A DNA stretch of 64,000 bases from Beroe forskalii. Lineage: Eukaryota; Ctenophora; Nuda; Beroida; Beroidae. Within the stretch, counting starts at the first letter, position 1; every line of letters begins with the position of its first letter. The notes below the pieces were generated by a model. That model was not told the origin of the DNA. It saw only the letters and a list, made by a program, of their open reading frames with translations, and ran no database searches. The DNA lies in contig WFMF01000004.1 of NCBI GenBank assembly GCA_011033025.1, forward strand, positions 124,001 to 188,000. The letters are read 5' to 3'. Both the position numbers and the translations under genes were made by a program. Shown one piece after another: positions 12,100-60,500 of this stretch.

Positions 12100-14730
12100 A
12101 ATTACAGAGTTCACCGTACGGAGGCTTCCCTAAACCTGGGATCACCTCTAATCACGGACTCCCCTGTACACTGCTCCCCTTAATCTAGGGGCTCCCCCGA
12201 TTGTCCGGGGCTCACCTCTATACACGGTCTCGCCCGCCAGACTCACCCTATTGCCGGGCTTCACCACCAGGCTCACCGGACCTCGGGCTTCACCAATGCC
12301 TTGGGATAACCCCGATACAGGGGCTCTCACCCGTGGGCTCACCCTTACCTTGGGCTTCGCCACCAGGCTCACCCGATCCTCGGGCTTCACACGGATGTTC
12401 TGGGATAACTTGATACAGGGACTCACCCGTACCAGACTCACCTTATCTTGGGCTTCACCATACCAGGCTCCACCGAACCTCGGGCTTCACTGATGTTCTG
12501 GGCTCACCCTCAAACATGGCATCACCCATACCAGGCTCACCCCTTACATTGGGCTTCACCGTGCCACCTGGCTCCACCTTATCCTGGGCTACACTGATGT
12601 TCTGGGCTATCCCTGAAACATGGGATCACCCATACAGGCTCACCCCTTACCTTGGGCTTCACCGCGGCTCCCACACCTAATCCTAGGCTCCACCACAACT
12701 TGGGCTCACCCTGAAACATGGGATCGCCCATACGAGGCTCACCCTACCTTGGGCTTCACCGTACTTGGCTCACACCTTATCCTGGGCTTCGCCATAGCTT
12801 GGAGGCTCCCCCACTTGTTGCCCCCCTACCAACTCAGGGCTCCCCTATGACAAATCTCCCCATGGCTCCACACCCTGGGATCACCCCAACTCGGGCTCCC
12901 TCATACTTCGGGCTCCCCACCAGCAGAGCTCCCATATACCAATTTGGGCTCCCCCAGACTAACTCGGGCTCCCCCATACTACCTCGGGCTCCCCCATACT
13001 AACTCAGGCTCCCCCATATTAACTCGGGCTCCCCCGTGCAGTACGGGCTCCCCCGTACCAACTTGGGCTCCCCCGTTCTAATCGGGCTCCCCCCATACAA
13101 CTTGGGCTCCCCCCGTGCTGTTCGGGCTCCCCCATACCAACTTGGGCTCCCCGTGCATTCGGGCTCCCCATACCAACAGGCTCCCCCGTGCTGTTCGGGT
13201 TCCCCATACTATGGGCTCCCCCATGCTTTTCGGGCTCCCCCATACCAACCAGGGCTCCCCCGTGCTGTTTGGGCTCCCCATACCAACTTGGGCTCCCCCG
13301 TTCTGTTCGGGCTCCCCATACCAACTTGGGCTCCTCCGTGCTGTTCGGGCTCCCCCATACCAACTTGGGCTACCCATAATAACTTGGGCTCCCCGTGCTG
13401 TTCAGGCTCCCCCATACCAACAGGCTCCCCGTGCTTTCGGGCTCCCCCATACCAACTTGGGCTCCCCGTTCTGTTCGGGCTCCCCATACCAACTTGGGCT
13501 CCCCGCCTCTAATCGGGCTCCCCCATACCAACTTGGGCTCCCCGTGCTGTTCCGGGCTCCCCGTACTAACCCTGGGCTCCCCCCGTGCAGGCTCCCCCAC
13601 ACCAACTTGGGCTCCTCCGTGCTGTTCGGGCTCCCCCATACCAGCAGGCTCCCCCATGCAACTTGGGCCCCATGCTGTTCAGGCTCCCCATACAACTTGG
13701 GCTCCCCCGTGCTTTTCGGGCTCCCCCATACCAACTTGGGCTCCCCCGTTCTTTTCGGGCTCCCCCATACCAACTTGGGCTCCCCCGTTCTAATCGGGCT
13801 CCCCCATACCAACTTGGGCTCCACCGTGCTGTTCGGGCTCCCCCATACTAACTTGGGCTCCCCGTTTAGTACAGGCTCTAACAGGCTCCCCGTTCTAATC
13901 AGGCTCCCCATACTGCTTGGACTCCCCGTTCTGTTTTCAAAGGCTCCCCCGACCCCCATACCAACTTGGGCTCCCCCGTGCTGTTCGGGCTCCCCCATAC
14001 CAACTTGGGCTCCCCCGTGCAGTTTGGGGCTCCCCCATACCAATTTGGGTTTCCCGTGCAGTTCGGGCTCCCCCATACCAATTTGGGCTCCCCTGTACTG
14101 TTCGGGCTCCCCTGTACTGTTCGGGCTCCCCTATACTAACATGGGCTCCCCTGTACTGTTCGGGCTCCCCTATACTAACATGGGCTCCCCCGTGCTGTTC
14201 GGGCTCCCCCATATCGCTCCCCGGCTCCTCCACATACAAACTTGGGCTCCCCCGTAATGTTTGGGCTCCCCATACCAACTTGGGCTCCCTCGTGCTGTTG
14301 TTCAGGCTCCTTATACCAACTTGGGCTCCCCCATGCTGTTCGGGCTCCCCATACAGACTTGGGCTCCTCCGTGCTGTTCGGGCTACCCTATACTAACATG
14401 GGCTCCCCCGTGCTGTTCGGGCTCCCCCATGTTCGGGCTCCCCCCATACCAACTTGGGCTCCCCGTGCTGTTCGGGCTCCCCCATACCAACTCTGGCTCC
14501 CCCATACCAAGTCGGGCTCCCCCGTAATGTTCGAGCTCCCCCATACCAACTCAGACTCCAACACACTGTTAGTGCTGCCGCGTTCAATCTTGGGCATCCA
14601 TGCACTATTTATACTCCCAATGCCTATTTTGGACTTTGGGATCCCCCTTCCTTTCAGTATAAGGGCTCTCTATTTGACTCAGGCTCTCCATCTACGTACG
14701 TCGGCTCTCCACACAGTTTTAAATGAGAAA
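12100..14730 (+). repeat. Left arm: C-rich tandem array, 39-bp inner unit
   Basis: The inner array (about 12960-14560) alternates GGGCTCCCCCATACCAACTT and GGGCTCCCCCGTGCTGTTC. The outer part (12100-12900) has a degenerate 35-45-bp unit around GGGCTTCACC and GGCTCACCC. The arrangement is homogeneous inside and diverged outside, as expected if inner units are refreshed by unequal exchange. Long open frames with Gly-Ser-Pro-Leu repeats across it are by-products of the tandem unit. Confidence 0.9.
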
Positions 14731-15672: not shown

Positions 15673-17745
15673 CATCCCAAGTTGGTATGGGGGAGCCCGA
15701 ACAGAACGGGGAGCCCAAGTGGTATGGGGGAGCCCGAGCAGCACGGGGGAGCCCATGTTAGTATGGGGGAGCCCAAACAGCACAGGGCCCAAATTTTGGT
15801 ATGGGGGAGCCCGAACAGCGCAGGGCCCAAGTTGGTATGGGGCCGAACAGGTTTCAGGGGAGCCCAGGGTTGGTATAGGGCCCAGACAGCACAGGAGCCC
15901 AAGTTGGTATGGGGGGCGAACAGCACGGGGGGCCAAGTTGGTATGGGGGCCCAGACAGCACGGGGAGCCCAAGTTGGTATGGGGAAGCCCGAAAGCACGG
16001 GGAGCCCATGTTAATAAGGGGCCGGCTGGCACAGGGGGCCCAGCAGTGGGGGCAGGCAGGCTACCCAAGTGGCCCAACAAACCGGGGGCCAGGTTGGGGG
16101 AACCCATTGGGGGTGGGCCCGTTGGGAGCCCCCGTGAGGGGCCCAAAAGGGGGGGGCCCAGGGCCCGGGTTTGGGGGGCCAAGGTTTTTGGGGCCAGGCA
16201 ATGGGGGCCCGGGGCCAGTTGGGGGGCCCAACCGGGGGAGCCCAAAAATGGGGGGGCCGGGCCCGAGGCCCAATTTGGGGAGGGGCCCCGGGGGCCCAGG
16301 TTGGGAAAGAAAAGGAAGAGGCTAAAGGGGCCCAAGTTGACCCAGGGGGAGTTTATGAAAAATTGACAAAGCAATGAAACTAAAAGGGAAGGCATGTTAG
16401 TAGGGGAACAGGCCCTTTTGGGGGGGAGCCCAGAAACTGGGGAAGGGAAGGGTGAGGGGGGTGTTAGAAAACCGGGGGAAAAATATGAAGGCTGACAAGG
16501 GGAGTTTTAAAGGGGGGAAGGAAAAGGGGGCCCCGTTGGGTTTGGGGGCCCGAGTGGGGGCCCAGGGGGGGCTGGGTGTATGGAGGGGCCCAGTGGGGGC
16601 CCGAACAGCTGGGGGCCCAGGTTGGTATGGGGGGCCGGGGCTTAGTGTGGGGGCCCAGGGGGGGGCCCGTTGGTATGGGGCCCGAGTTAATGAGGGCCCA
16701 GTTAATGGGGGAGCCTGAGTTAGTATGGGGGCCCTGAGGTTGGGGTATGGGGGAGCCCAAATTAATGAGGGCTGGTTAATATGGGAGCCCAAGTTGGTGT
16801 GGGGCCTAGAGTTGGTATGGGGGCCCCAAATTGATGTATGGGATCCCAGGATTGGTATGGGGCCCAAGTTGGTGTGGGGGAGCCTTGAGTTGGTAGGAGG
16901 CCCAAATAATGGGAGTGGGGGCCCAAGCAAATGGGGGGCGGATGTCATAGGTATTGGTGAGCCCAAACAAGTGGGGGAGCCCAGTATGGGGCCCATGTTT
17001 CAGGGTGAGCCCAAGTTGGTATAGGGGAGCCTAGGGGGGATGATCCAGGGTTGGTGAGAAAGTTACGTGGGTAGTAAAGCCCAAGGTATAGGAGCCTGAG
17101 CCTATATGGGGATCCTGCATGTTTCGAAAGGGCCCAGAACATCAGTGTAGCCCAGGATAAGGTGTGGAGCCAGGTACGGTGAAGCCCAATGTAAGAGTGA
17201 GCCTGGTATGGGTGATGCTAAGGCAAGTTTGAGGGTGAGCCCAGAACATCAGTGAAGCCCGAGGTTCGGAGGAGCCTGGTATGGCGAAGCCCAAGATAAG
17301 GGTGAGTCTGGTACGGGTGAGCCTGTATCAGGTTATCCCAGAACATCCGTGAAGCCCGAGGATCGGGTGAGCCTGGTATGGCGAAGCCCAAGGTAAGGGT
17401 GAGCCTGGTACGGGTGAGCCTTTATCAACATCCCAAGGTTATCCCAAGGGAGCCTGGTATGGCGAAGCCCAAGTTAAGGGTGAGTCTGGTATGGGTGAGC
17501 CCGTGTATGAGGCCCCGGACCGAGTCTGGGGATCCTAGTGTATGAGGTCGGTGGAGACAATCGGGTTAAAGGTGAGTTGGTAGGGAGCAGTGTATAGGGG
17601 AGCTTTCATAGGATAGTTATCCCATGTGTAGGGAAGCTTGGGTGGACTTGGTGAACTCTGTAATTTGTGATACCTAGAATAGGGGGAGCCCTTGTCACCA
17701 AAACGGATACATGGGCTCCCCCTACTTGCCAACCCCATTAATTAA
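15673..17745 (-). repeat. Right arm: G-rich tandem array, inverse of left arm
   Basis: It starts abruptly with the reverse complement of the left-arm inner unit (CCCAAGTTGGTATGGGGGAG) and ends with the reverse complement of the left-arm outer unit and terminus. From about 15800 to 16750 the units are badly disrupted, with long G runs and missing bases, unlike the tidy left arm. That pattern could be real decay or poor consensus through a hairpin. G-run density would allow G-quadruplexes on this strand. Confidence 0.85.
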
Positions 17746-28800: not shown

Positions 28801-31800
28801 GCCTGCCCCGAGGTGAAGCTAGCCACCGAGTAGTCGCCGTTATCCACCGAGGGGAGGGAAGTGCTCGGGCAATCGTAGCCTACTGCCTAGGAGGGGCGAT
28901 AACCTTATTTTAAAAAGCTACAAATAAAATCATTTCGGCATTTCGTTTTGAAGAAATCTTTGAGCATTTTGCATTTTATTCTGGGAAAAATATTTCAATG
29001 AATTTACAGTAATTTCGATGAATGTAATATCAAGGTGACACTAGTCACCTTGATATCTTCATGTATTTATCTTCACGTCCATTAGAAGTTAAGAGTACGA
29101 TGCTGAAATTATCAAAGACTGAAGGTGCAAGATATCACACCCTCATTAACAATATTGTTGTTAAGTTGTTGACATTAAATTAATGATTAATAAGATCATT
29201 AAATTGATCATTAATTGCTTATTAAGTTGTTGACATTACATTGATGACTAATAAGATCATTAAATTGATCATTAATTGCATGGAAACAGGGTATTCAGCA
29301 GATAAGGTGGGCACATTCTTGTGATATTTGTATTTCTCCATGCTAATTGACCTCAATTTAACAAAAGATACACGTGACTGTGTGATACGTGACATCGCCG
29401 GGATATTCGAGACGACATACGAGGAGCCTCAGGCACTGCCGCGCACGAGAAATAGGCGAGTAGGATGACGTCATTATCATACCACGATGTAGTGTGTTGA
29501 TGACGTTGACGGCCTATTTCTCTAACGCGTCGTGTAACTTCAAGATGTTTCCTTCGCACATAAAACATGGCAGTTATATCGAGTTTCGACGGTCCTGCTG
29601 TGCGAGTACAGACCCACCAAGTGTCCCCGTGCTTTTTGCTTTTGAAGTTATGACATGATTGGTATCACTTAACATCAGTATTTTTCAGTTGCTTGTATAT
29701 TTTGCGTGTGTTTTTTGTGCATTTGAGAGCGTTAGAGTACACTTATTATTCCTTATATGGAAACTTGCTGTGGTATTAGTAATTTCACATGTTGTTGAAA
29801 GTAGCCTTCTCATGAACCTATTTGTAGTGTTGCGTTGTTGTTTCTGTCTCGTTCACTTTTGAGCGTTTTCTGGTTCTTCAACCGTCTGCATCATGTTTAT
29901 ATGCTTTTATTCTGGAATGTTTCATTTCAGTACATATTTCTTAATTTACCCAATTCTCCAATATTTCTCCGATCACCGTGTAAATTCTTTACTTTATCAC
30001 CATTTTAAATCACCACATTTCTTAACCCTATATCGGCTCTATCAGAGAAATCTGCATAGGCATGAGGAGGTCAGCCCCTTACACAAAGAATGGTCCATGG
30101 AAGCCAGGCTCAGCGAAGGTCTCAAAGGAAACCATGGATAGATACGACAGAGTCATAGACAGGGAACCCCTCACCCATGCCTCTCTGGACCTGTCTAGTG
30201 ACATAGTGACTGTATACGACTTGGAAACAGCTGGCCTGGGAAAGTTCGATGATATTCTTCAGGTATGCAAATTATAAATCGTAGCATTGGTTTTACAAAT
30301 TCTGCTACCATTACCATTGATAAAATCCCAAGCTTTATCCCTGTTGTCACGCCTGCATTATAAGTGACACAAATCTTTGTTTTTTTCGAATTTTCACCCA
30401 AATAGTATGACGTATAACAACAACATTTGACAAAACAACATTTGACAAAAACATAACAATTTATGTTTCTCAGATCTCAGCGATCCGTCTGGATTTGAAG
30501 GAGAAGAAGGAACTCGACAGCTTCAACTGCTACTGTTTACCAAGGAAACCAATACCTGATGAATCCAGTCAAATCCATAACATCTACTATGAAGACGGTG
30601 TGATGATAAAGAAGAAACATGACGACTCTGAGGAATATGAAATTCTTGACGCAGTGCCAATAGACCTGGGCTTGGAGAGTTTTCTAAAGTGGGCACGTCA
30701 TGACGGAAATGAAGCGGGGCACAAGTTGCTGGTTGGGTATAACAACTTATATTTTGATGACATCCGTATCATTAATCAGATCCGTGACAGGTGTCATGAG
30801 GCACACTTGACTGATTTACGACGGACATTCTTTTCATCAGACGTAAAGATAATACTGAACAGTAGGAGGAAGTTGGTGGAGGAAGCACAAAAACTAGATA
30901 TTGATACCAGCGATGCCCACGAAGGATTGAGTGACTGCAAGATGGTTTGTGAGATCATTCTGCGTAGACCGATCACTATGACCCAGCTAAAGGAAAAGGC
31001 CTGTTCGTTCGAGGACTCTATGAACAACCTGACCAACCCTCTTCTGAAATCAGGGCTGATTACGCAGGCAGTAGCTCGCAGATTACCGAATCAGTACACT
31101 CATAAGGAGTGGTTTGCAATGTCAGATGAGGAAGTCAAGGAAATGCTTCAACTGAACGGCGTGGTGGCAGTTGCAGTCAAAAGATGTCTGGCAATGCGCC
31201 AGAAATACAAGTAACAGTCATAGGACTAGGGCTGGAGAAGCATTGATTAATACACCATTTAGATAGTTAATATTTTCTCAGTTATTTGAGTAGTATTTGC
31301 AGAGTACGCAGTTGGAATGTGCAAAGTAACACATCTGTGAATTATAAATTTCGCAGCAATTGGATTATTATTTCTTGAAATAGTTGTTGTCTACTTTTGT
31401 TGTTTAAAATGTCAGTTATAAAGCCAAAATAATAAATAACAAAGAAAAACCGTGAAATGATTATTTTGTTTTTTGTTAAGGTAAATGAGATTTTTTGGAA
31501 AAAACAAAAAATATGTCGGCCACCCCCTATTACGCCAAAGTTCGCCAAAAATCAGAACTGGTCTCCTAGAACTTACTCAAAAGTTCGGCTGTGAGGAGAG
31601 TGTCTTCATCATTAATCATTGCCTTGTCATCATGGTGTTTTCCATCACGATGATGACGTCACCCTCCCCCCCCCCCCATTAAAACAGATGCATTTTTTGC
31701 CAATTTACCAAATTCTTGGCCGAAATTCTCCCTATAATGCGCTAGTCCTTATCAATCATGTTTTCCATCACGATGATTGATGACGTCACGAAAGTTAACG

Positions 31801-34800
31801 ACGCCACATCTTTGAATGATTGATGACGTCACTCTCCTCCCACTCCCTGATAATGACGTCATCACTTTAACCCCTCACTTTAATCCCTGATAATGACGTC
31901 ATCAACTCTCCATTCTAACCCCTGATAATGACGTCATCAACTCACCACTCTAACCCTGATAATGACGTCATCAACTCACCACTCTAACCCCTGATAATGA
32001 CGTCATCCTCCTCCTAGGGACGCTGACTGAGAACGAGCTAGTATTTCGGAAGTGCAGTGTCGGAGGAGTCAAGTTCGCCTCCGTGGAAGGGGTCATGGTG
32101 GAGGAGAACTCTGAGATAGCTGTGGATCTGGCCAATCAGAGCGTGAGTTGAAATTTGTTGTGTTCGAGGTTCAATTGGGTCCAAAGGAACTTGGGCCCCT
32201 ACCTTACTACCTTTCTGTGGTCTTAGAATTCCGATATAAAACTACGCATCCCCTTAGGTAAAATAAATGTTAAAATGCCTCCCCCTCCCCTCAGGTGAAA
32301 GACTTCCTGATATCTATGTCGCTGTGTCACTCCGTCTTCACGACGGAGCAGCAGGGAAACCTCACCTACGAGGCTAGTTCCCCGGACGAGCGAGCTCTGG
32401 TGGAGGCAGCCGCTCAGTGAGTCCAGCATTCTCATTGGCTGAGCGGTATCACGTGACATCGAATTTAGCACTGTCATTGGTCGAGCGATAACACGTGTTA
32501 TCGAATGCAGCACTGTCATCGGTTGATACTGATAGCGCTATCCGTGACATCAAATCTAGCATTCTCATTTTCTATTATCGCTATCCAGCATTGCCCATAT
32601 GTTTGCACATGGATCGATCGATAAAAACGCGTAATATGACTGTACATTCGACATGAAAGTAAATTGCGCGTACCATGTGAAATGCGAGCCTTTATGATAT
32701 TGGCGCGTGCAGAAAAATTGAAAAAGTATTATGTGAAGGATATCTTTTTAGTTTCATATCTCTATATCCTCACTTATCGGGTCCATATTGGTTTATACCC
32801 CCGCCCTTTAGGCCGAGGGTGCATCCAAAAATGAACCCGATTGGCACGTGTTTATGTATTTTGTTACCCCATCGTCCTATCTAAATGACTCCTCTCTTCA
32901 CCCCAGGTTCGGTGTCCGGTTCATGTTCTCGTCTCGTAACTCTCGTAAGATTAAAGTCGAGGGTCGGTTGGATCGGTACGAGTTCCTACATGTTCTGCCC
33001 TTCGATAACAACCGGAAACGGATGAGCATCATCCTGCGAGACCCGGACGGAAAGATTAGTGATTGCAGTGCCTTGACATCACTTCTTTTAGATTCTGTTG
33101 CTATGACAACACATTTTTCAGATCCTGTTGTTATGACAACACTTCTTTCAGATACTGTTGCTATGTAAAGGGGCTGAGTCATCTGTACTGGATATCTGTG
33201 ATAGTGGCTGTGTGGATGTCACGAGACAACATGTTGATGAGTAAGTTGAAACATCTTTTAGCTTCAAAATATTCCTAAATTCCAATTTTAATATTAGTGT
33301 TCTTATGAATCTTTTATCTCTTTTCAGTTTTTCTCTCGCTCCCGTTTCCCTTGTCTTTGCTATCTTCGAGATATATCTTATCTCACTCCCTTATATCGCT
33401 CCCTTATCTCACTCCCTTATCTCGCTCCCTTATCTCACTCCCTTATCTCAGCCACTTATCTTTCTTATCTCACTCCCCTATATCTCTTATCTCACTCCCC
33501 TATCTCTCTTATCTCACTCCCTAATCTCTCTTATCTCACTCCTTTATCTCACTCCCCTCAGCTATGCAGCAGAAGGTCTGCGGACCCTTGTCTTTGCTAC
33601 CCGTGAAATCTCCCCGGAGGATTACGAGACAGTGGATAAGTTGATGGTGGAGTGTCAGAATGCCATCAACGACAGGGAGGCAAAGGAGCAGGAGGCTTTC
33701 ACTACGGTGGAGGATAGGTTGTGCTGTATTGGTGCTACCGGCGTGGAGGATAGGTGGGTTTTGGGAGGGATTAGGGTTAAGGGCGTTTAGTGTGATAAAT
33801 GTGTTTAGGTTTATGGGTTACTAAACCTTGGTGAAACTAAATATCACCTTAAAACTTGCCCTAATTCCTGTTCCTTAACCCTGGGACAGGAAACCTTATC
33901 CATGATCGAGGGTAGGTGAGTGTATGTTATTGGTGCAGCAGGGTTTTTTGAACCACCCTAAGTAGTACGCTAATTAACATTTAGTTGCCTGGTACTATTG
34001 TAACCATAAGTTACTTTAGTGCCTATCAAGATGGTAACCATGGTAACCCTTTCAGGCTACAAGACGGTGTTTATGAGACTATCAGTGCGCTAAAAGAGGG
34101 TGGTGTCAAGCTCTGGGTGCTTACAGGTGACTAAAGCAGCTAATAAACGATCCAAAGAATAGAATGAATCTCACATTATTGGCCTTTATTTAACCGGCCC
34201 TTTAGGACAAAAACAACTTTGAGATTTTTGTCCAAAGGAACGGTTGTCGATAATTACGTCATAAACACACCACTCTACCCCCTGATGATGACGTCATCAG
34301 CACACCACTCTAACTCCTAATGGTGACGTCATCAGCACACCACTCTAACCCCTGATAATGACGTCATTAACTTTTCCACTCTAACCCCTGATAATTACGT
34401 CACCAACTCCCCACTCTTACCCCTGCTAATGACGTCACTTCCCCAGGCGATAAGATGGAGACAGCCGTGAACATCTCACAGTCGTGTAACCACTTCACCA
34501 GCTCCATGAAGCTCCACTTCCTGACGGCAAGGAGGGACGGGGAGAGTTGTAGGGATACTCTGGAGAGTCTACACCGACAACTGGAAGGTAGGGGGAGATA
34601 AGAGATAGGGTTTAAACAACCCTTTTACACCCTTTTCACTATTCCTTCGCTTGTTACTGATGAGTTGTAGGAGATTAGGTAAGAGATAAGAGAGAGGATG
34701 AGAGAGATAGGAGATAAGAGATATGAGATAAGAAAGATAAGGGAGATAAGAGATATAAGGTAACCACTTCACCAGCTCCATGAAACTCCACTTCCTGACA

Positions 34801-44624: not shown

Positions 44625-45003
44625 TATGACGTCATCAATTCACCATTACAATTTATGATGATGACGTCATCATGATTATCGGCCACCTTGATTGAAGATC
44701 TGTGTGTTCACGATCGCCAACGCAAAAAGGACTGATCATCCAGGCCGGCCCAAAATATCATTATCATCAGATGATATTTTGTACCGGCCTGGATGATCAA
44801 TTCTTTTGTTTCGACGATAAAGAAGACGTCAAATTCCAATCATTCAATCAAGTGTCTCTTCATTTGCCACCGAGTTTATGCAGACACGTCATCGATTCTC
44901 TATTCCAATCTAGGATAAAATAATGACGTCATCAACACACCATTCTAAACCCTGATAATGACGTCATCAACACACCACTCTAAACCCTGATAATGACGTC
45001 ACT
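44625..45003 (+). repeat. TGACGTCA-bearing satellite copies in the flippase 3' region
   Basis: TGACGTCA occurs at about 44628, 44652, 44925, 44959 and 44993 in the unit ATTCTAAACCCTGATAATGA / CGTCATCAACACACCA, the same family as the intronic arrays. Confidence 0.8.
44733..44799 (+). ncRNA. 67-nt near-perfect hairpin in the flippase 3' region (pre-miRNA-like)
   Basis: The left arm begins TGATCATCCAGGCCGG and the right arm ends CCGGCCTGGATGATCA; arms are 29 nt, 27 of them paired, with a 9-nt loop TATCATCAG. Size and loop fit a small-RNA precursor, but the stem is more perfect than usual for an animal miRNA, so a tiny MITE or chance hairpin is equally possible. Confidence 0.35.
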
Positions 45004-46404: not shown

Positions 46405-47600
46405 TTCATCTCACGACATTTTATCTCACGACATTTCATCGCACGACATTTCATCTCACGACATTTTATCTCACGACATTTCATCTCACGACGCTTTATC
46501 AGTATCTCACGACACCTCATCTCACGACATTGTATCTCACGACGCTTTATCTCACGATGCTTCCTCTCACATAACATCTCAGGAAACTTCATATCACGAA
46601 ATTCCATCCCACGAAATTCCACCTCACGACACTTCGTAGTTTATCTCACGACACTTTATCACACGGCACTAATTCATCTCATGACACCTCATCTCACGAC
46701 ACTTCATCTCACGACACTTCATCTCACGACACTTCGGGGAACGGACATTTTATCTCACGACATTTCATCTCACAACATTTCATCTCACGACACTTCATCT
46801 CACGACACTTCATCTCAAGAAATTAAACTTAAATCTCACGTCATTTCATCTCACGGCACTTTATGTCAAGACATTTCATCTCACGACACTCCAAGTCCAT
46901 CTCACGAAACTTCATCTCACGACACTTCATCTCACGACTCTTCACCTCACGACACTTCATCTTACGACAATTCATCTCACGACACTTCATCTCACGACAC
47001 TTCATCTCACGACAATTCATCTCACGACAATTCATCTCACGACAATTCATCTCACGACACTTCATCTCACAAAACTTCATCTCAAGAAATTAAAATTAAA
47101 TCTCACGTCATTTCATCTCATGGCACTTTATGTCACGACATTTCATCTCATGAAATTGAATCTCACGACACTTCATATCACAGCACTTCATCTCACAGCA
47201 CCTCATCTCACAGCCCTTTATCTCACGACACTTCATCCCACGACACTTAATCTCACAACATTTCATCTCACGACACTTCATCTCACGACACTTCATCTCA
47301 AGAAATTAAACTTAAATCTCACGTCATTTCATCTCACGTTATTTCATCTCACGGCACTTCATCTCACGACACTCAATCTCACGAAAATTCATCTCACGAC
47401 ACTTCATCTCACGACACTTCATCTCACGACACTTCATCTCACGACACTTCATCTCACGACACTTTATCTCACGACACTTCATCTCACGACACTTCATCTC
47501 ACGACACTTTATCTCACGACACTTCATCTCACGACATTTCATCTCAAGAAATTAAAATTAAATCTCACGTCATTTCATTTCACGGCACTTCAATTTTCAC
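46405..47600 (+). repeat. 15-bp satellite TCTCACGACACTTCA with higher-order blocks
   Basis: About 80 tandem copies of TCTCACGACACTTCA with substitutions at a few positions (ACATT, ACAAT, ACTTT). A block containing CAAGAAATTAAA and AATCTCACGTCATTTCATC recurs near 46813, 47083, 47306 and 47547, marking a higher-order period of roughly 240-270 bp. Because 15 is divisible by three, all frames on both strands stay open for long stretches; none is a gene. Confidence 0.95.
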
Positions 47601-48762: not shown

Positions 48763-51639
48763 ATGCGATTTGTATCTCTTCTATTGCTCCTAATTACGAG
48801 CTCTGCTGGTCCTCTCTGAACGGACCACCCAAGAAGACCTAGATGCGTTAGAATACGACTCCCCCTGCCCTCGTGGCTCCTACTCCTACGACGGGTGGGG
48901 CTATCACTCCGAGGAATACCCGTGCGAACTGTGCGGAGCGGGAGAGTTCGGTGGGGATGAAGGGCTGGATGAGTGCGGAGCATGTCCCGCGGGCAGCTAT
49001 ACGCCAGATGAGGGATTCTGGGAATGTGTCCAGTGCCCGCAGGGGAGTATTGCAGATCAGGAGTACAGTGTGGAATGCTACCCGTGCTATTTGGGGCAGT
49101 ACGCACCGAACGAGGGCGGGACTTCCTGTGAGAACTGCCCGTCAGGTAGTTACCAGGATGAAGAAGGAGCGGGGGATTGTAAGACGTGTCCTGCGGGCAC
49201 CTACCAAGACACCCCCGCTTCTGAAACCTGCAGCCTCTGCTCTGCGGGATCTTCCTCCCCTGCGGGATCTGATGCTGCTGAGGCCTGTACTCCGTGTGCT
49301 GCGGGCTCTTACGCCCCTACTGAGGGGTCTGAGTGCCTGCCTTGTCCAGTGCTGAGTTACAGTGACGTCACAGGAGCTGTGGCCTGCAAGGATTGTCCGT
49401 CCAACACGGACGCTGAAGGAGCGACGGAGTGTAAAGCGGAGGTGGAGTGTGAGGACGGAGAGGTTGAGGTGGACGGCGTGTGTACGCCCTGTCCAGCTGG
49501 GAGTTTTGGACAGGATAAGGTGTGCAAGCCCTGCTCAGCTGGTACTTTCAGTGCCACCACAGGGGCCACCCAGTGCGAGACATGCCAGCCTGGCACCTTC
49601 AGTGCCACTGAGGGTTCAGCCAGCTGTGACGCATGTCCAGCTAAAACATACGGCCCCACTGAGGGCCTGACGGAATGTCTGGAATGTCCAGGGAATGCTG
49701 ACGAAGGAATGACGGAATGTAAAGTGGAGTGTCCGGCCGGACAGGTGGAAGATAAGGATGGAAACTGCGTGGCGTGCCAAGTTGGCACCTACGAGAAGGA
49801 GGGACAGTGTGTCACTTGCGAAGCAGGCGCCTACTCCGACACAGCCGGGGCTGTGGAGTGTCAGACGTGTCCCGAGGGACACTACTGTCCCGCCGGGACA
49901 TCAGACCCGCAGCAGTGTCCCGCTGGCAGCTACTGCCCTGCTGGGTCTGCTGACTCTACCCCGTGCCCCGCTGGGACATTCAACACTGAAAGTGGCAGCT
50001 CTAGTGCTGATAGCTGTGTGGCGTGTCCAGGAGGAAGCTACTGTCCTGCTGGGTCTTCCTCCTCTACTCCGTGCCCTGCTGGGACCTTTAACACTGAAAG
50101 TGGCAGTTCCTCAGCTGACAGCTGTCTGGTGTGTCCCACTGGAAGCTACTGCCCTGCTGGTGCTGCTGACTCTACTCCTTGCCCTGCAGGGACCTTCAAC
50201 ACTGAAAGTGGCAGTTCCTCAGCTGACAGCTGTGTGGTGTGTCCCACTGGAAGCTATTGCCCTGCTGGGTCTTCCTCCTCTACCCCGTGCCCTGCTGGGA
50301 CATTCAACACTGAAAGTGGCAGCTCCAGCTCTGAAGCTTGTGTGGCTTGTCCAGGTGGCTCTTACTGCGCCACGGAAGGACTGAGTGCTGTGTCTGGGCC
50401 GTGTGAGGCTGGATACTACTGTCCAGAAGGCAGCAGTTCAGCCGAACAGAACATCAGTCCGCCAGGGACCTACAGTCCCACTGGATCCTCCTCCCCTACC
50501 CTCTGCCCTAAGAACACCTGCTGTGTCGGACCTTGCGAGGGAGGATACTACGCAGCAGGTCAGCAGTTCTGCCAGGCTACATCAGACACAGGATACAGCC
50601 CCACTGGATCCTCCTCCCCTACCCTCTGCCCTAAGAACACCTCGGACCCCGAAGGACTACGGGATCTAGCAGCGTGCCATGTGTGGTGTGTGCAGGCGTA
50701 CAGTGACACACAGAACGCTGACGCCTGCACGCCTTGTGCCCGCAACACGTATACTTCCATTGCGGGCTCCACTGCATGTCTTGTCTGCCCGGATACTGCC
50801 GCCTGCACTTTGGGGAGGGACGGCATGACTCCTTTGATACTGCCTACACTGACTCCTTTGATAAGTGTATAGGACCGGTTGTAGAGGTGTGCACGGAGAA
50901 GGATATGGGAGGAGATTGTGGTAGGTACTATGATGATAACCTCCAGATTAACTACGATATCTTGTCGCTGCAAGTGGTGAGAGGAGAGTTTGAAGTGTAC
51001 ACGGCTCCAAATCATGGAGGGGATTATTCGCTGGTAACGGAAACTGATGGACCTCTAAATGTGGAGGAAATCTTCAATTCGTACGACTCTGACGAGACAA
51101 AAGTCCTGTCCTTCAAACCCATCCTGAACGATGTTTTCTGTTCCTTTGAAAAGGGAGAGAACTTCAGGGGAAGCTTCAGGACCAGTGCCAGCAACGGAAA
51201 ACCCTGTCTCAACTGGAGTGACACACCCCTCTCTGACATCGCACTTCCCAACACCTACTGCCAGAACCCGGACGGATCCGCAGACGAACCCTTCTGCTAC
51301 ACCAGTGAAACAGAAACGAGTCCCTGTGGGATCCCGGGATGTCTCTGGGATATCATCTGTTACACGGGGATCGGAGCGGAGTACCGCGGGACTACATCCA
51401 GCACGGAGCATTCTAAAACCTGCCAGAACTGGGAGACTGACTGGCCACACCCTCACTCCTATCACGGAGATAAGTACGCCTGGGCAGGGATCGGGGATCA
51501 CAACTTCTGCAGGAATCCCGATAAGAAGGGAACGGGAAAGACCTGGTGTTACACGACCAGTCTTAATCCCTACTACTGGTGGGATTACTGCGATGTGGAG
51601 AGGTGCAACCGGGATCAGTTCGATTTCTACAAACTCTAA
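48763..51639 (+). CDS. Secreted cysteine-rich protein: GCC2/GCC3-like repeats, beta/gamma-crystallin-like domain, two kringles (two frame breaks)
   Basis: Intronless and much more GC-rich than its surroundings. ATG 48763 has a good context (CCACCATG) and opens a signal peptide MRFVSLLLLLITSSAG, but TGA follows at 48817. The domain frame, open from 48794, is shifted by one base. That frame encodes about 15 Cys-rich modules (CPAGT, YSDTAGA, GxYCPAG) of the GCC2/GCC3/ephrin-receptor type, including four nearly identical 41-residue repeats with TFNTESGSSSADSC, and stops at 50870. Downstream coding continues in the first frame from about 50830: a beta/gamma-crystallin-like stretch (VCTEKDMGGDC, FEVYTAPNHGG), kringle 1 (51136-51342) and kringle 2 (51358-51610), each with six cysteines and GKPCLNW/KTCQNW, NPDG/NPDK and FCYT/WCYT. 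The two shifts cancel. It is either a real gene with two sequence errors or a recent pseudogene. An extracellular adhesion or defence role is only a guess. Confidence 0.85.
49890..50380 (+). repeat. Four 123-bp tandem repeats inside the Cys-rich gene
   Basis: Each unit encodes a GSYCPAG, STPCPAGTFNTESGSSS and C-V/L-CP module of about 41 residues. Near identity at the DNA level points to recent expansion or gene conversion. Confidence 0.85.
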
Positions 51640-53887: not shown

Positions 53888-54575
53888 CTACTTCTCTTTG
53901 TCCTCTAAAAAGTGGGTGGTATACCACTCGGCTACGGCGCTCGAATCAACGCCCTCATATCGCTTGATAAAGGGATGCTGGAGAAGTCTGTCGTACTTGG
54001 GTCGCTGGTCGACATCTTTAATCAGGCAGAATCTGACAAAGTCAATGAATTCCGGGGAGAACCCGTCCTCTGGTTTGAGTTGTGGCGGGGGCGAGTTGAT
54101 GATTTCCGTCATGAGCATGAACTGAACGGCGGTGTTGTTGTATGGGTATTTGCAGTACGCCAGCTCTATCAGCGTTACGCCGAGCGACCAAACATCCGCC
54201 CGGATATCGTACGACGGGTTGTCTTGATCGGGCGGGTCGATCCGTTCGGGCGACATGTATGCCGGGCACCCCTGGTCCCGCGTCTTAACCTTACTATCGA
54301 CCAAGTTACCCGCAATGCCAAAATCACAGATCTTAACTTGTCCGTTTCTGTCGATGAGGATGTTACTCGGCTTCACGTCGCGGTGAATCACGCTGTACTG
54401 TTGCTTGAGAAACGCCAGGCCGTTGACCACCCCCACCGTTATTTTCCCGAGAACTTCCTCGGGAATTCCGCCGGTCATCCCTCGCGCTTTCATGGCTTTC
54501 TGGAGCTTTTCCAGACAGGTGTCCATGGGCTCCATGCAGATACACACGTCCTGTTCCGTGATGTACGCCCCGTAC
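53888..54575 (-). CDS. MAP2K7: MKK7 exon 6: C-lobe of kinase domain and stop
   Basis: Begins at acceptor GCTCAG/GTACGG, giving [11 protein letters not shown] after exon 5. It carries [34 protein letters not shown] and the C-lobe to TAG at 53890-53888. The position after the phosphorylated Thr is Arg-Asp where human MKK7 has Arg-Ser. An inverted repeat overlaps the intron just upstream of the acceptor. Confidence 0.97.
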
Positions 54576-57500
54576 CTGAGCAATATAGGATAATCAAACA
54601 CCCTTAGGATACGTTTATATGAATTATCACACGAGCGAAGCGAGTGTGATAATTCGAATTATTGCTCGAGCCGAAGGCGAGTGCAATAATTCCAATTATC
54701 ACTCGAGCCGAAGGCGAGTGTGATAATTGATATAAACGTATCCTCAGGGTGTTTGATTAATCTATTATATAACGTGAGAAACGGGCGGAGATCTACACTG
54801 GTTTTTCCAATAAAAAGCAAATTAAGAAGCTTTTAAATATGAAAACCCTTTGAGCTAGAGAGTAGAGGGCCTGAAATTGACTTAGGAAAATATCAAGATT
54901 GGCCAGGAATCTTAGATTAGATGGCGAAGAGTGGCTATGTATATCTAAATTTGCTTTCAAAGTATGCATAAAACGTAAGTACGGAATCTTTATAAACTTT
55001 GCTCATATCTTTTGATTCAACTAGGTACTATAAAGTCGATTGAAATGTGTAGCAACATCAACACAAAATTGAAATATCATTTCTGTGTAAGTGTGTAACG
55101 CTGTAACGGATGCACATTTATAGGCATTTATAGTATAGTAGTGAGGGTAAGTAGGTGCACGGCTCATGTATCGCATACCAGGTATACATAAACTCATGAA
55201 ACCAAAACAAACAAAATAAATGTATACACTGCTACACTGATGTATCCTAATGGAGTGAAAGCAAGTGGTCTTACTGGCACGTGGGTGTGCGGCTCATATA
55301 ATGACCAACAAGTGTACATAAACTCATTAAACCAAAACAAGATAACGTAATATGTATACACTGATGTATCGTAATGGAGTGAGAGCAAGTGGTCTTACTG
55401 GCACGTGGGTGCGCGGCTCATATAATGACAAACAAGGTATACATAAACTCATGAAACCACAACAAGATAACGTAATACGTATACACTGGTGTATTGATTT
55501 AGATCAAGTGGTCTTATTCCTTTACTGGCACGTGCGTGCGCGGCTCATATAATGACTAACGTGAACGGTGAATGCATAAACAAGATAACATAAGATGTAT
55601 ACACTGGTGTATGGTAATGGAGTGAGAGAATTGACTAAAAGTCAGATTGAAATGATTTTACAAAGTAGATAAATACGAATAACAAAATTCTAAAGTTTTG
55701 ATTTTTGGGGTGTGATAATTTTTCAAAGGTGTGATAACTGTTCTTTGAGGGGTGTGATAACTGTACAGTTATCACACACCTGGAAAAATTATCACACCCC
55801 AAAATTTCGAAAATTTTAAAATCTTATGAAAATTATTAATTGACCCCTAAACTCCATTTTTGAAGCCGTTATATAACAAAAATTATCAGAGCAAGAATTA
55901 TATAACGATCGTTATCTCTAATATAATTTCGCAACCTCTGTATTATTATAATTATGTACGTCGTAACGTCTTTTGTCCTTTTGTAGACACATTTTGAAGT
56001 GTGCACGTGCAGTATGGATATATGCGCGCGCGTTGCTATGGTTACATATTGCGCTCGCGTTCATTTCTGTTTAATGCTGTTTTGAATACGTTGATCCGTA
56101 ATAACTTTTGATCTGATTGGAATTTTTTGATGCGGTAAAAAGTATTGAGTTGATTTGAAGTTTGCGAACGAGGTGCTGCGTAGTAGCGCCGAGTGAACTG
56201 TTTATTAGCAGTCCCATCGGGCGTGCTAGTCTTAATTATAATTTCGTAAGAGCACGTGAATAATGTTTGTGCTCCCGTACACAATTAAATTTGAGCTTGC
56301 CAAGAAATTATCAAGGAAAACGAATACAAACGGGAGAAAGGAGGTGCTGTTGCTATGGAAACCAATTTTAGTGCACGTGCAGATTATGATCAGTTCTATG
56401 CGAGTGCTTTCTATTACGCAACTACTTTTAAATGCTGTGCTGTTAAGGCTTTTGAAAATTTTTGGCGTTTTCTTTACTTCAAGTTCAAGATCTCAAGATG
56501 GAGAATGGACATAACTTGAATAACGGAGGATATTTCAGATGGATTGTTATCATAAAACTGTGGCAGAGTTCGGTCTATAATCAATGCTTAGTCGGTGATA
56601 ACAGTAGTAACTGTAATTTTGAAATTGAACGCTTAGAGCAATCTAAGGTTTACAAAAGTGTACAATTTATTCGAGTTGAATATAGGTGAAGCAGATTACC
56701 AAGAATTGATCCTGGCCCGGGTCAATATGAAAAAAGTTGTCCAATGTCAGTAATCAGTATGGGAATCAGTTGTCAGATTTAACATCATCCTGCGGAACAA
56801 AAACGGAACAAAAGTCACATGATTTAGCACAATTACTGAGACTAATCGTCGAACTATTTTTTCACCCTGCTCCTTCATAAAATTCGTTGCGTATAACTAT
56901 TTATCTGATTGCAATTTTTTGATGCGGTAAAAATTATCCAATCAATTTGAATGGTAGTGTTCAATATTTGCGAACGAGTTGCTGCGTAGCAGCGCCGAGT
57001 GAGCTGTGTGTCTGCAGGCCCAACGGGCCTGCTAGTCTTATATATAATTTCGTAAGAGCACGTGAATAATGTCTGTTTGTGCGGGCGCACAGTTTAAATT
57101 TGAGCTTGCCAAGTAAATATCAAGAGAAACGAAGGCTAAGCTGGGCGAAGTCGCGCCGTTGCTATGGATACAGGTATTCTGCACGTGCAGATTATGATCA
57201 GTTCTATGAGAGTGCTTTCTGATACGTTGTTTACTGCTGCGTTATAGCGTTTGAAAGAACGTCCTGTTTACTGTTTTTCAAGATCTGAAGATAGAGGACG
57301 GGTATGGGCTGGCATCATGGAGGCTATTTCCGATATCATCTCTTCATAAATCTGTGGCAGACGCCGGTCAATTTAGATTAATACTGAGTTGATGGTAACG
57401 GAAAAATGTGAATTAAGAGCAATTTAAGATTGACCAACAGCAAAATCAAATTTAATCGAACTTCGGCATAGCACATTGCGATTTTGGATTACTGCTCTTG

Positions 57501-60500
57501 ATCTCTTGGCGTGAAACAATGCTTTAATTCAACGTTCAGTATGAGCACAATACTCGGTTTTGATTTTCAGATTTAAATTCATCATACAAGAACAGATTAC
57601 AATAATCAAAACTTGCACGGTCCAGCATTACAAAAAGTAACCAACGGATAATGGTAAATTTTGCTCCTTCATAAACTTTTTGATAGCTTATTATTTGGTC
57701 CCTCGCACATTCATATCTGTTTAATGCTGTTTTAATTTAGTTGCTCCGTAACTTTTGTCTTGATTGGAATTTTTGGATGCGATAAGAAGTGATCAATAAA
57801 TTTGAGTTGCAGTGTTTCAATTTGCGAACGAGGTGCTGCGTAGCAGCGCCGAGTGAGCTGTGTATTTGCAGGCCCAACGGGCCTGCTAGTATAATAATAA
57901 TTAAATAATAATTAATTAATGCAGAAAAATATTTCAATGATTCATTGATTCTAGATATTAGAGCTATAGTTTAGAAAGGCAGCAAACGTTAATAATAATT
58001 AATATTTTATTAATAATCAGTTGATATTTGATTAATATTAAACTAATTATTAATTAATATTTGATTAACTAATTTATGTCGTTTAACCGTACGAGTTGAT
58101 GATGCTCGGACACGTGTGCTCTTTGATGACGATGTTAAGGTCCGTGAAGATGCGCCGCTGCTCCCGAAGATCCTGTGGAGAAAAGAGAGATGACGTCATT
58201 ATCAGGGGGTAGAGTGGTGAGTTGATGACGTCATTATCAGGGGGTAGAAGGTTGTGTTGATGACGTCATTATCAGGGGGCAACTTTACATACTAACACAT
58301 ATGTTTGCAGATCGCTCGATACGGAGGGCCCGATAACTTTACATTCTAAAGTTATCGAGCCCTCCGTATCGAGCGATCTGCAAAAATATGCTTTATACGC
58401 CCTTCAATCGGATAAGACGTGTATCCGACAGTAGCAACCTGAGTTCGACGCATCTTCTTTACTGCCATAAGCACTCCTGTCGGCTTGTGCCGCATCAACT
58501 GAAACATTTACTCGGATCAAGTTTCCCTGCTTTCTTCATAGATCAAGTTTCAAAATTAAAATAAGTTGATGAAGTTAAGAATCATTCGACGCGTTCAATT
58601 CAGTTTTACGGGGTTAAATTTAAATATATAGGGTCAGTATGAAAATGAATAGGGTTATTGGAGTAAGATTCGGGCCATTAAATTCGCATAATGATAAAAT
58701 TTCCGAACTGACTGAAATGGGGTCCCTACGCCCTACGCATTGATGTCAAACCGGTTTCAAAATGAAAGCGACAGCCTCACTTCGGTAAACGCTCGTGCGC
58801 GCTATGCTCACACCTAATTTTAGGATCTTTCGATAGAAAAACTTCGCAAATTTTAGTTGTAAGCATTAAGAGAAGACCTGGAAGCCGCGCAATTTTGACA
58901 AAGCGTCAAGATAACAGGCAAACAAAACAACGCCGATCACCGATGGCAAACTGAGTGCTTAAATTCTGCTGAAACCGTCTTTGGAATTTTTAATCAACAA
59001 AACTTGGGTTCCAAAGTTTAACATAACATCCAACGCCATAACCGCCAGTGTCCTTACGTTATATTCACAGGACGATTGACAAGGAAACAAAACCTGAAGT
59101 TAACAGCAAAACGCCCCTTTTTTCCACCGGGAAATCTTGTCTCAAAATGAAGGGTTTATGATGAATAAACCAATCGGTTAACCGTGCGTTTTCAGCCATA
59201 CGAAACCGAAACTGTATATTTTGATTTCGCAGATAACCGTTTAGAGAAATGGTTGATTAACCGAATCGAAACCAAAATACCGTTTGACCGGGCGGTAGGC
59301 GGACTTTATAGCTAACGGACTTTATAGCTAAACCGGTCAAAATAGCTGAATTTTGATTTAGCTATATCGTCCGCAGTTCGGACTATTTAGCTAAATCTTC
59401 CTCCTCCCAATCAGTTTAGATGTTTAGCTATATAGTCCTCGATTCGACTATTTAGCTAAATCTGTATCATAGCATTTGTATAACATCACGATACATCACG
59501 GCTCATAGCAGCGATGAGCCGCGTCATGAGGAAGGGTAACGTAACACCTGTGCTACTTGGGGATATCTGAGATAGTAATGTCTACTTGCTAAGGTTATCT
59601 GGGATAAGGAGAAAGCTATTGTTATGGTTGGCTTCAGCAAGTTCATCACCGGCCAGCCCAGTCTTTCAACCCTGCTGACCAGACCCTTCTAACGGAGCGA
59701 AGCAGCACAGCCAGAAGCACCAACCTCCGAGACCATTCTTTCCCCCCCCCACCCGTCAGAAGACCCAGAGACGTACTTCGTCGCGTACGAGGGCAAGACA
59801 GAAATAACTCTGTTTATGACTTATCTCACATGAACTAAGATACTGAGTTAAACCTGAGCTGATCCCAGAGCTGAATCATTGAATGTGCCCAGTGCGCACT
59901 TGTCGTTTCAGATGCAGAGGATTTACTGATTGGGTTACTCCCCAAATTTTGCCACGCTACCCTGTCAATTATTGAGCTCCCATGCGCGCAGTTGTCCGGC
60001 AGCCGTTATAACAGCTGTGCCCGCTACACCGACACGGGGACATGTGCTCTGATTAGGTGGAATTGTACGGTTTGATCCGCTATGGCAAAGCGTAGAGCAT
60101 TATATCCATACCGAGGAACAGTAAGGTAAGATTTAGCTATATCGTCCGCAGTTCGGACTTTTCAGCTAACGGACTAAATAGCTAGAGCTAGGACTTTATA
60201 GCTAAACCTACAGAAAAATTTAGCTATATAGTCCTACAATCGACCGGGCGCTTCTAGCCGTTTGAAACCGAAAACGTAACAGAAAAGCAAATTAAGGTTT
60301 AGGGAAATGGTCCATTAACCGTAACCAGAAAACTGGTTGACTGGCACTTTTTCGCTGAACCGTAACCGGATTTATTGGGAAAAGTTAATGAATGAATGAA
60401 TGAAAATATTTTTACAGCACAATTACAGTACAAATTCTTAAAAACATTTTCATATATGAAGAAGTTTCTTGGTTATGCTGAGGAACAGCACTAAGTCAAT

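Follow-up and report, generated by a model that had tools for sequence, protein, structure and literature searches.

The locus at positions 48763-51639 of the window (here the whole 64,000-nucleotide stretch of Beroe forskalii DNA that was analysed, part of contig C469 in a genome searched as 216 Mb in 1134 contigs) is probably a member of an expanded family of secreted, non-enzymatic modular proteins with a scaffold or recognition role, present here in a copy that is broken as assembled. In this reading the domain content, the domain order, the family and the frame breaks are observations, from which we infer, by analogy of domains, an extracellular scaffold or recognition role. The order proposed in the earlier note, from Cys-rich repeats through a crystallin-like middle to two kringles, was recovered as claimed (Table 1). 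The same note had treated 48763-51639 as a single intronless gene and overlooked both frame breaks: the ATG frame ends at 48817, and the repeats and the crystallin-kringle part lie in different frames. The first break falls within 48763-48819, and the 18-residue stretch MRFVSLLLLLITSSAGPL could alternatively be a translated pyrimidine tract. The crystallin-like part and the kringles together stay open for 305 codons (50722-51636, frame 1). Between the copies of the 108-bp repeat, pS was 0.474 and pN 0.175 (summed over the six pairs of four copies), showing that the internal repeats of the window gene were under purifying selection in the past.

Table 1. Features of the stalk-crystallin-kringle locus, in window positions.
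Feature	Position	Strand	Remarks
Putative signal-peptide-like stretch MRFVSLLLLLITSSAGPL, 18 residues	48763..48819	+	ATG, frame 1, TGA 48817-48819
Cys-rich repeat region, frame 2	48794..50872	+	Open for 692 codons (48794-50869), then a stop codon at 50870-50872
Coding tandem repeat, unit of 108 bp (36 residues), 4.1 copies	49915..50353	+	Within Cys-rich region
Zone in which frame 2 gives way to frame 1 (second break)	50783..50865	+	Between last Cys repeat and CIGP motif
Beta/gamma-crystallin-like middle, CIGP ... DILSLQVVRGEFEVY ... VLSFKP	50866..51138	+	Frame 1
Kringle 1, compact, six Cys	51139..51342	+	40.6 bits
Kringle 2, full length, NPDKK at anionic centre	51358..51606	+	69.1 bits
Short polar tail at the C-terminus with stop codon, lacking a membrane segment	51607..51639	+	
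41-bp tandem duplication across stop codon	51611..51692	+	Last codons recur in 3' flank

The two ends of the protein were readily assigned. Ephrin_rec_like (PF07699), listed under its earlier name GCC2_GCC3 in a table of PMC4224354, matched the window protein in 16 stretches (Pfam, E 5.5e-48, 161 bits against a curated cut-off of 23.1), in agreement with the GCC2/GCC3 repeats first noticed in the sequence. The two proposed kringles were likewise borne out: Kringle (PF00051) matched the 301-residue crystallin-kringle query in two stretches (Pfam, E 2e-28), both scored above the Pfam cut-off of 34.3 bits in a genome-wide kringle profile search (40.6 and 69.1), and inspection of each translated domain by eye showed six cysteines. 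Kringle 2 aligns over its full length with the kringles of plasminogen and HGF, from which the window protein differs in that no protease domain was found by Pfam and that Asp is missing from the second anionic position. At this anionic centre the plasminogen kringles that we take, by their position, to be numbers 1 and 4 have NPDND and NPDAD, respectively, and the presumed number 3 has NPDGK, as against NPDKK in kringle 2 of the window. As stated in PMC11231438, a lysine-binding kringle needs two acidic residues (Asp54, Asp56) together with Arg70, and plasminogen kringle 3, which has Lys56, binds a lysine analogue poorly, Lys56 being the cause. Read by eye, kringle 2 of the window carries NPDKK and YYWWDYC, and kringle 1 NPDGS, in place of this lysine-binding set. 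Given the NPDKK of kringle 2 and the Lys56 precedent, a classical lysine pocket would not be expected in the window kringles. No membrane segment was evident in the repeat or crystallin-kringle parts tested, and no enzyme domain was listed by Pfam for the window protein or the scanned paralogues, which suggests a secreted scaffold or recognition protein, with a binding or matrix function.

The window copy does not stand alone. Its crystallin-kringle part found 71 matches in its own genome, itself included, many of which are the kringles of other genes; reading of the loci after this search gave 13 with the same core, the window counted. The window DNA matched only itself in the assembly, with no second copy or haplotype. 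Like the window, C202a, C202b and C880 end shortly after kringle 2; a long branch comprises C167a, C167b, C160, C389, C1 and C189, and a branch with a short repeat part C154, C325 and C449. Eleven of the 13 loci are present in the genome-wide kringle list, the kringles of the two absent ones (C1 and C189) having been read by eye. Several relatives are open in one frame over 542 to 1815 codons, and C202a, C167a and C154 are long single frames. C202a (L040) and C880 (L042) share with the window the Ephrin_rec_like repeats (27 and 13 stretches, respectively), a CxGP middle and two kringle-like domains, with 44-45% identity over the matched kringle part; they differ from it in a worn first kringle, leaving one Pfam-scored kringle each, and C202a also in having one open frame of 1001 codons. 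The long branch also has the repeats, the CxGP middle and two kringle-like domains, these last recognised partly by eye, and differs in frames of 776 to 1815 codons; C167a differs further in its F5/8 type C and ricin-like domains (Pfam) and has 33 Ephrin_rec_like stretches. In relatives, Pfam often misses one kringle of the pair (one kringle stretch in C202a and one in C880, two in C154); the window copy has both clear. No kringle was found in the whole of C167a at E up to 0.05 (hmmscan), and both C167 copies are just over the kringle cut-off in the genome-wide list. L040 and L041, on C202, are tandem copies about 16 kb apart, from a recent duplication or an assembly artefact; C202b, whose repeats are broken, is identical to C202a across the last 720 nt of the gene, and on this identity it may be an assembly duplicate.

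The breaks in the window copy may be real, in which case the locus would be a family pseudogene yielding no full-length protein, a serious possibility though one short of probable. Two breaks within about 2.9 kb, the 41-bp duplication that covers the stop codon, and damage in sister copies point this way: C449, which is like C154, lies split across some 3 kb, a 5-nt gap appears in C325 when it is set against C154, C160 changes frame twice, and the repeats of C202b are broken. Against decay, the remainder is open over the 692 and 305 codons and bears the mark of past purifying selection, both breaks coincide with domain borders, a placement that random decay would not necessarily produce, and small assembly indels would give the same appearance. 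That the gene is intact and both breaks are small assembly errors is about equally conceivable, being consistent with the open remainder, the kept domain order of the family and the long single frames of C202a, C167a and C154; the absence of a second copy or haplotype from the assembly and the clean frame of the neighbouring MKK7-like 256-codon stretch argue against it. Decay and assembly error were thus graded about equally likely as causes, and the window copy may be non-functional.

Frame-restoring introns at one or both breaks, or a true first exon further upstream, form an unlikely third account. For comparison, 18 split-kringle regions of the genome were used as a benchmark, in which the best-scoring join was taken each time, so that its numbers are flattering; introns were solved in 17 of them (136-497 nt, donor scores -2.5 to 5.3, CAG or TAG acceptors), and no consistent join was obtained in L078. 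With donors tried at 48766-48816 and 50700-50865, ten frame-restoring GT-AG candidates were found in the window, those at the first border all of 25-43 nt and those at the second of 35, 83, 104, 116, 170 and 182 nt. GT-AG pairs therefore occur at both borders, and the acceptor scores of some, including the -1.2 of the 83-nt candidate, lie within the range seen. This 83-nt candidate would read GSTACL-CIGP with a spacing near that of the relatives, from a weak donor and an AAG acceptor, and the 170-nt candidate has an ordinary intron length for this genome and a TAG acceptor. In addition, no start Met is obvious in the frames of C880, C167a, C160 and C189, and some members may therefore have a 5' intron. 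All window donors nevertheless scored lower (-2.8 to -5.8) than those of the solved introns, and the 170- and 182-nt candidates would excise the invariant Cys of CxGP. Scored against the 17 solved introns, the ten candidates make introns an unlikely origin of the breaks, and small indels were judged more likely. The description of the gene as intronless is likely to hold in so far as the candidates at the breaks look poor.

The assignment of the middle domain depends on the family rather than on the window copy. Taken alone, the window middle (91 residues from 50866) had Crystall as its only Pfam match, at E 0.039 and 14.5 bits against a cut-off of 25; Crystall was absent at E up to 1 when the 301-residue window query was used, the genome's list of 55 Crystall matches contained no family member, the window copy included, and a search of the PDB with the window middle alone returned no crystallin but five unrelated sequences at E 0.41 or worse. 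Among seven aligned family middles, three matched Crystall individually, and none of the seven matched any other Pfam family at E up to 10. With E up to 10, the profile of these seven middles recovered 56 different sequences from the PDB, of which 54 were crystallins or AIM1, which we take to be a crystallin-type protein (53 bore the name crystallin or gamma-E and one AIM1; the other two were an anti-CRISPR and a fatty-acid-binding protein), with a best E of 5.3e-5 and 23 matches at E 0.001 or better. Single crystallin domains scored weakly (i-Evalue 0.73 to 4.9 in two alignments), the whole-chain E being a sum over two domains, and the 54 matches are largely a few of the same lens proteins; for both reasons the PDB profile evidence is consistent with, rather than by itself strong for, a crystallin origin.

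Profile-profile comparison (hhalign) was made against nine author-chosen crystallin-like stretches, taken from six loci with Crystall in this genome; the broken C449 and C202b were excluded from the middle profiles, and C389, C1, C189 and C325 entered only the 11-member set. The seven-member set scored 38.6 (probability 92.6%), a value reached by none of 300 column shuffles (maximum 16.1), nor by the reversed alignment (17.5) or 11 overlapping controls drawn from the same alignment (13.4 or lower). The window middle alone scored 29.6 against a shuffle maximum of 23.3 (n=300). The 11-member set scored 43.4, with none of 200 shuffles reaching it (highest 17.6), and the eight members from branches other than that of the window scored 44.6. 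Together with the family profile search of the PDB, these controlled comparisons make homology of the middle to crystallins a well-supported prediction for the family as a whole. The crystallin-like middle, previously a judgement from family pattern, is thus sustained by family profile and hhalign and falls under the Pfam cut-off for the window copy alone. A structure prediction of 50860-51636, run without an alignment, had a mean pLDDT of 37.2 and yielded no usable model. The calcium motif of crystallins is N/D-N/D-x-x-S/T-S and is absent from many members; by eye it is kept in neither half of the window middle, which has YDILSL and ETKVLS at the matching places. The window middle therefore resembles the beta/gamma-crystallin superfamily (PF00030) in its family-profile match and differs from it in its sub-threshold score alone and its worn calcium motif. 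Convergence on a short motif, in a middle not derived from crystallins, could account for that low score, for a match centred on about 30-50 residues and for the weak single-domain values; it appears quite improbable, as the family profile recovers crystallins almost exclusively in the PDB, the hhalign score was out of reach for every shuffle and control stretch, and Crystall is the sole Pfam family that members match.

The earlier description of the gene as G+C-rich relative to its surroundings holds (0.566, with flanks of 0.394 and 0.407), and the same is true of all five relatives measured, with gene and flank values of 0.488/0.375 for C202a, 0.591/0.429 for C880, 0.475/0.366 for C167a, 0.502/0.408 for C154 and 0.509/0.355 for C160, the last a broken copy with a short flank. 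Third-position G+C varies more widely (0.57-0.62 in the window, 0.57 in C880, 0.55 in C154, 0.47 in C160, 0.39 in C167a and 0.35 in C202a), so that the excess is partly a matter of protein composition and partly not common to all members. The genome-wide kringle list has 123 entries: 43 span 60 or more of 79 positions in a single frame, and in 24 cases an N-terminal half pairs with a C-terminal half across a gap of 114-494 nt; split and single-frame kringle genes are both common in this genome, and the window gene is not thereby singled out as a retrogene. The suggested search for an intron-bearing paralogue gave no copy of the whole architecture among the loci read, although exon-wise searches could miss one. 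A retrogene or recent foreign arrival, once suggested by the single-exon appearance and G+C richness of the gene and favoured further by a third-position G+C above that of C202a and C167a, is very improbable, since 12 other loci carry the same core, the measured relatives are likewise richer than their flanks and often single-frame, no close relative was found in viral contigs (two pattern matches) or in bacterial and archaeal genome contigs (17 pattern matches), and no run of at least eight A occurs in the approximately 660 bases downstream of the stop. A retroposition long ago, at the root of the class, is conceivable.

Several other elements were observed in the window. Directly upstream of the stalk-crystallin-kringle gene lies a 15-bp satellite, TTCATCTCACGACAC, in about 74 copies (46405-47546). 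A 256-codon frame on the minus strand (53891-54658) has MAP kinase kinase 7 as its best PDB match (E 3e-80), and a 267-codon frame on the plus strand (30411-31211) contains an RNase_T exonuclease domain (E 2.7e-8). A G+C-rich 39-bp array at 12928-14552 is followed at 15676-16012 by an array of a nearly identical 38-bp unit in inverted orientation, the two having opposite GC skew. Dispersed 35-bp repeats with TGACGTCATC or its reverse complement, which we take to resemble a CRE site, occur at 31876-32007, 34249-34437, 44920-45001 and 58189-58279.

Related domains are combined in other ways elsewhere in the genome. By Pfam, L052 joins Ephrin_rec_like, TSP1 and Crystall, L048 joins Crystall, Kringle and DM9 in a single frame, and L056 joins TSP1, Crystall and Kringle, also in a single frame. 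These three resemble the window gene in combining a Pfam-grade Crystall with Ephrin_rec_like or Kringle, and differ in their orders and partners, none having all three window domain types in the stretch scanned. L062, a further single-frame mosaic read from sequence, is present in both the Crystall and the Kringle match lists of the genome. L050, L051, L053, L055 and L057 are single-frame genes with two crystallin-like domains and then another region, which looks aerolysin-like to us. L045 (C588) is a single-frame gene in which a peptidase, presumably papain-like, is joined to two kringles and to additional Cys-rich domains; a partial near copy lies about 5-6 kb further along.

If the protein is made, the Ephrin_rec_like repeats would form a disulfide-rich stalk giving length and stiffness, the divergent crystallin-like domain, opening with CxGP and with its calcium motif worn, would act as a rigid spacer, and the kringle pair would be a head that binds a protein or glycan partner through a surface distinct from the classical lysine pocket; the window copy, broken twice as assembled, would be a decaying copy of such a gene or one marred by assembly indels. 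More broadly, we lean towards an undescribed, largely single-frame family of about 13 loci, in which a divergent crystallin domain forms a fixed adaptor between a stalk of variable length and a non-lysine-binding kringle pair, within a wider shuffling of modules. The domain order was not found described among the papers listed in the literature search, which covered mostly work outside subscription journals; that search found no paper joining Ephrin_rec_like with a kringle and none uniting crystallin, kringle and thrombospondin in cnidarians, and for crystallin-kringle in sponges it returned unrelated papers only. No such architecture was seen in passages of PMC2394772, PMC4224354 and PMC12549020. 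These are known modules in an apparently new order, shared by a family, for which the term undescribed is provisional.

Should this reading hold, the adaptor family would belong to a broader reshuffling in this lineage, in which crystallin, kringle, TSP1, DM9 and ricin-like modules come together in secreted proteins with few introns, and crystallins would be extended to a role as stalk-to-kringle adaptors. Exon shuffling is the usual explanation for modular extracellular proteins. The crystallin-kringle family, which consists largely of long single frames beside ordinary intron-split kringle genes, would lend itself to the study of how combinations of domains are propagated when introns have become scarce.
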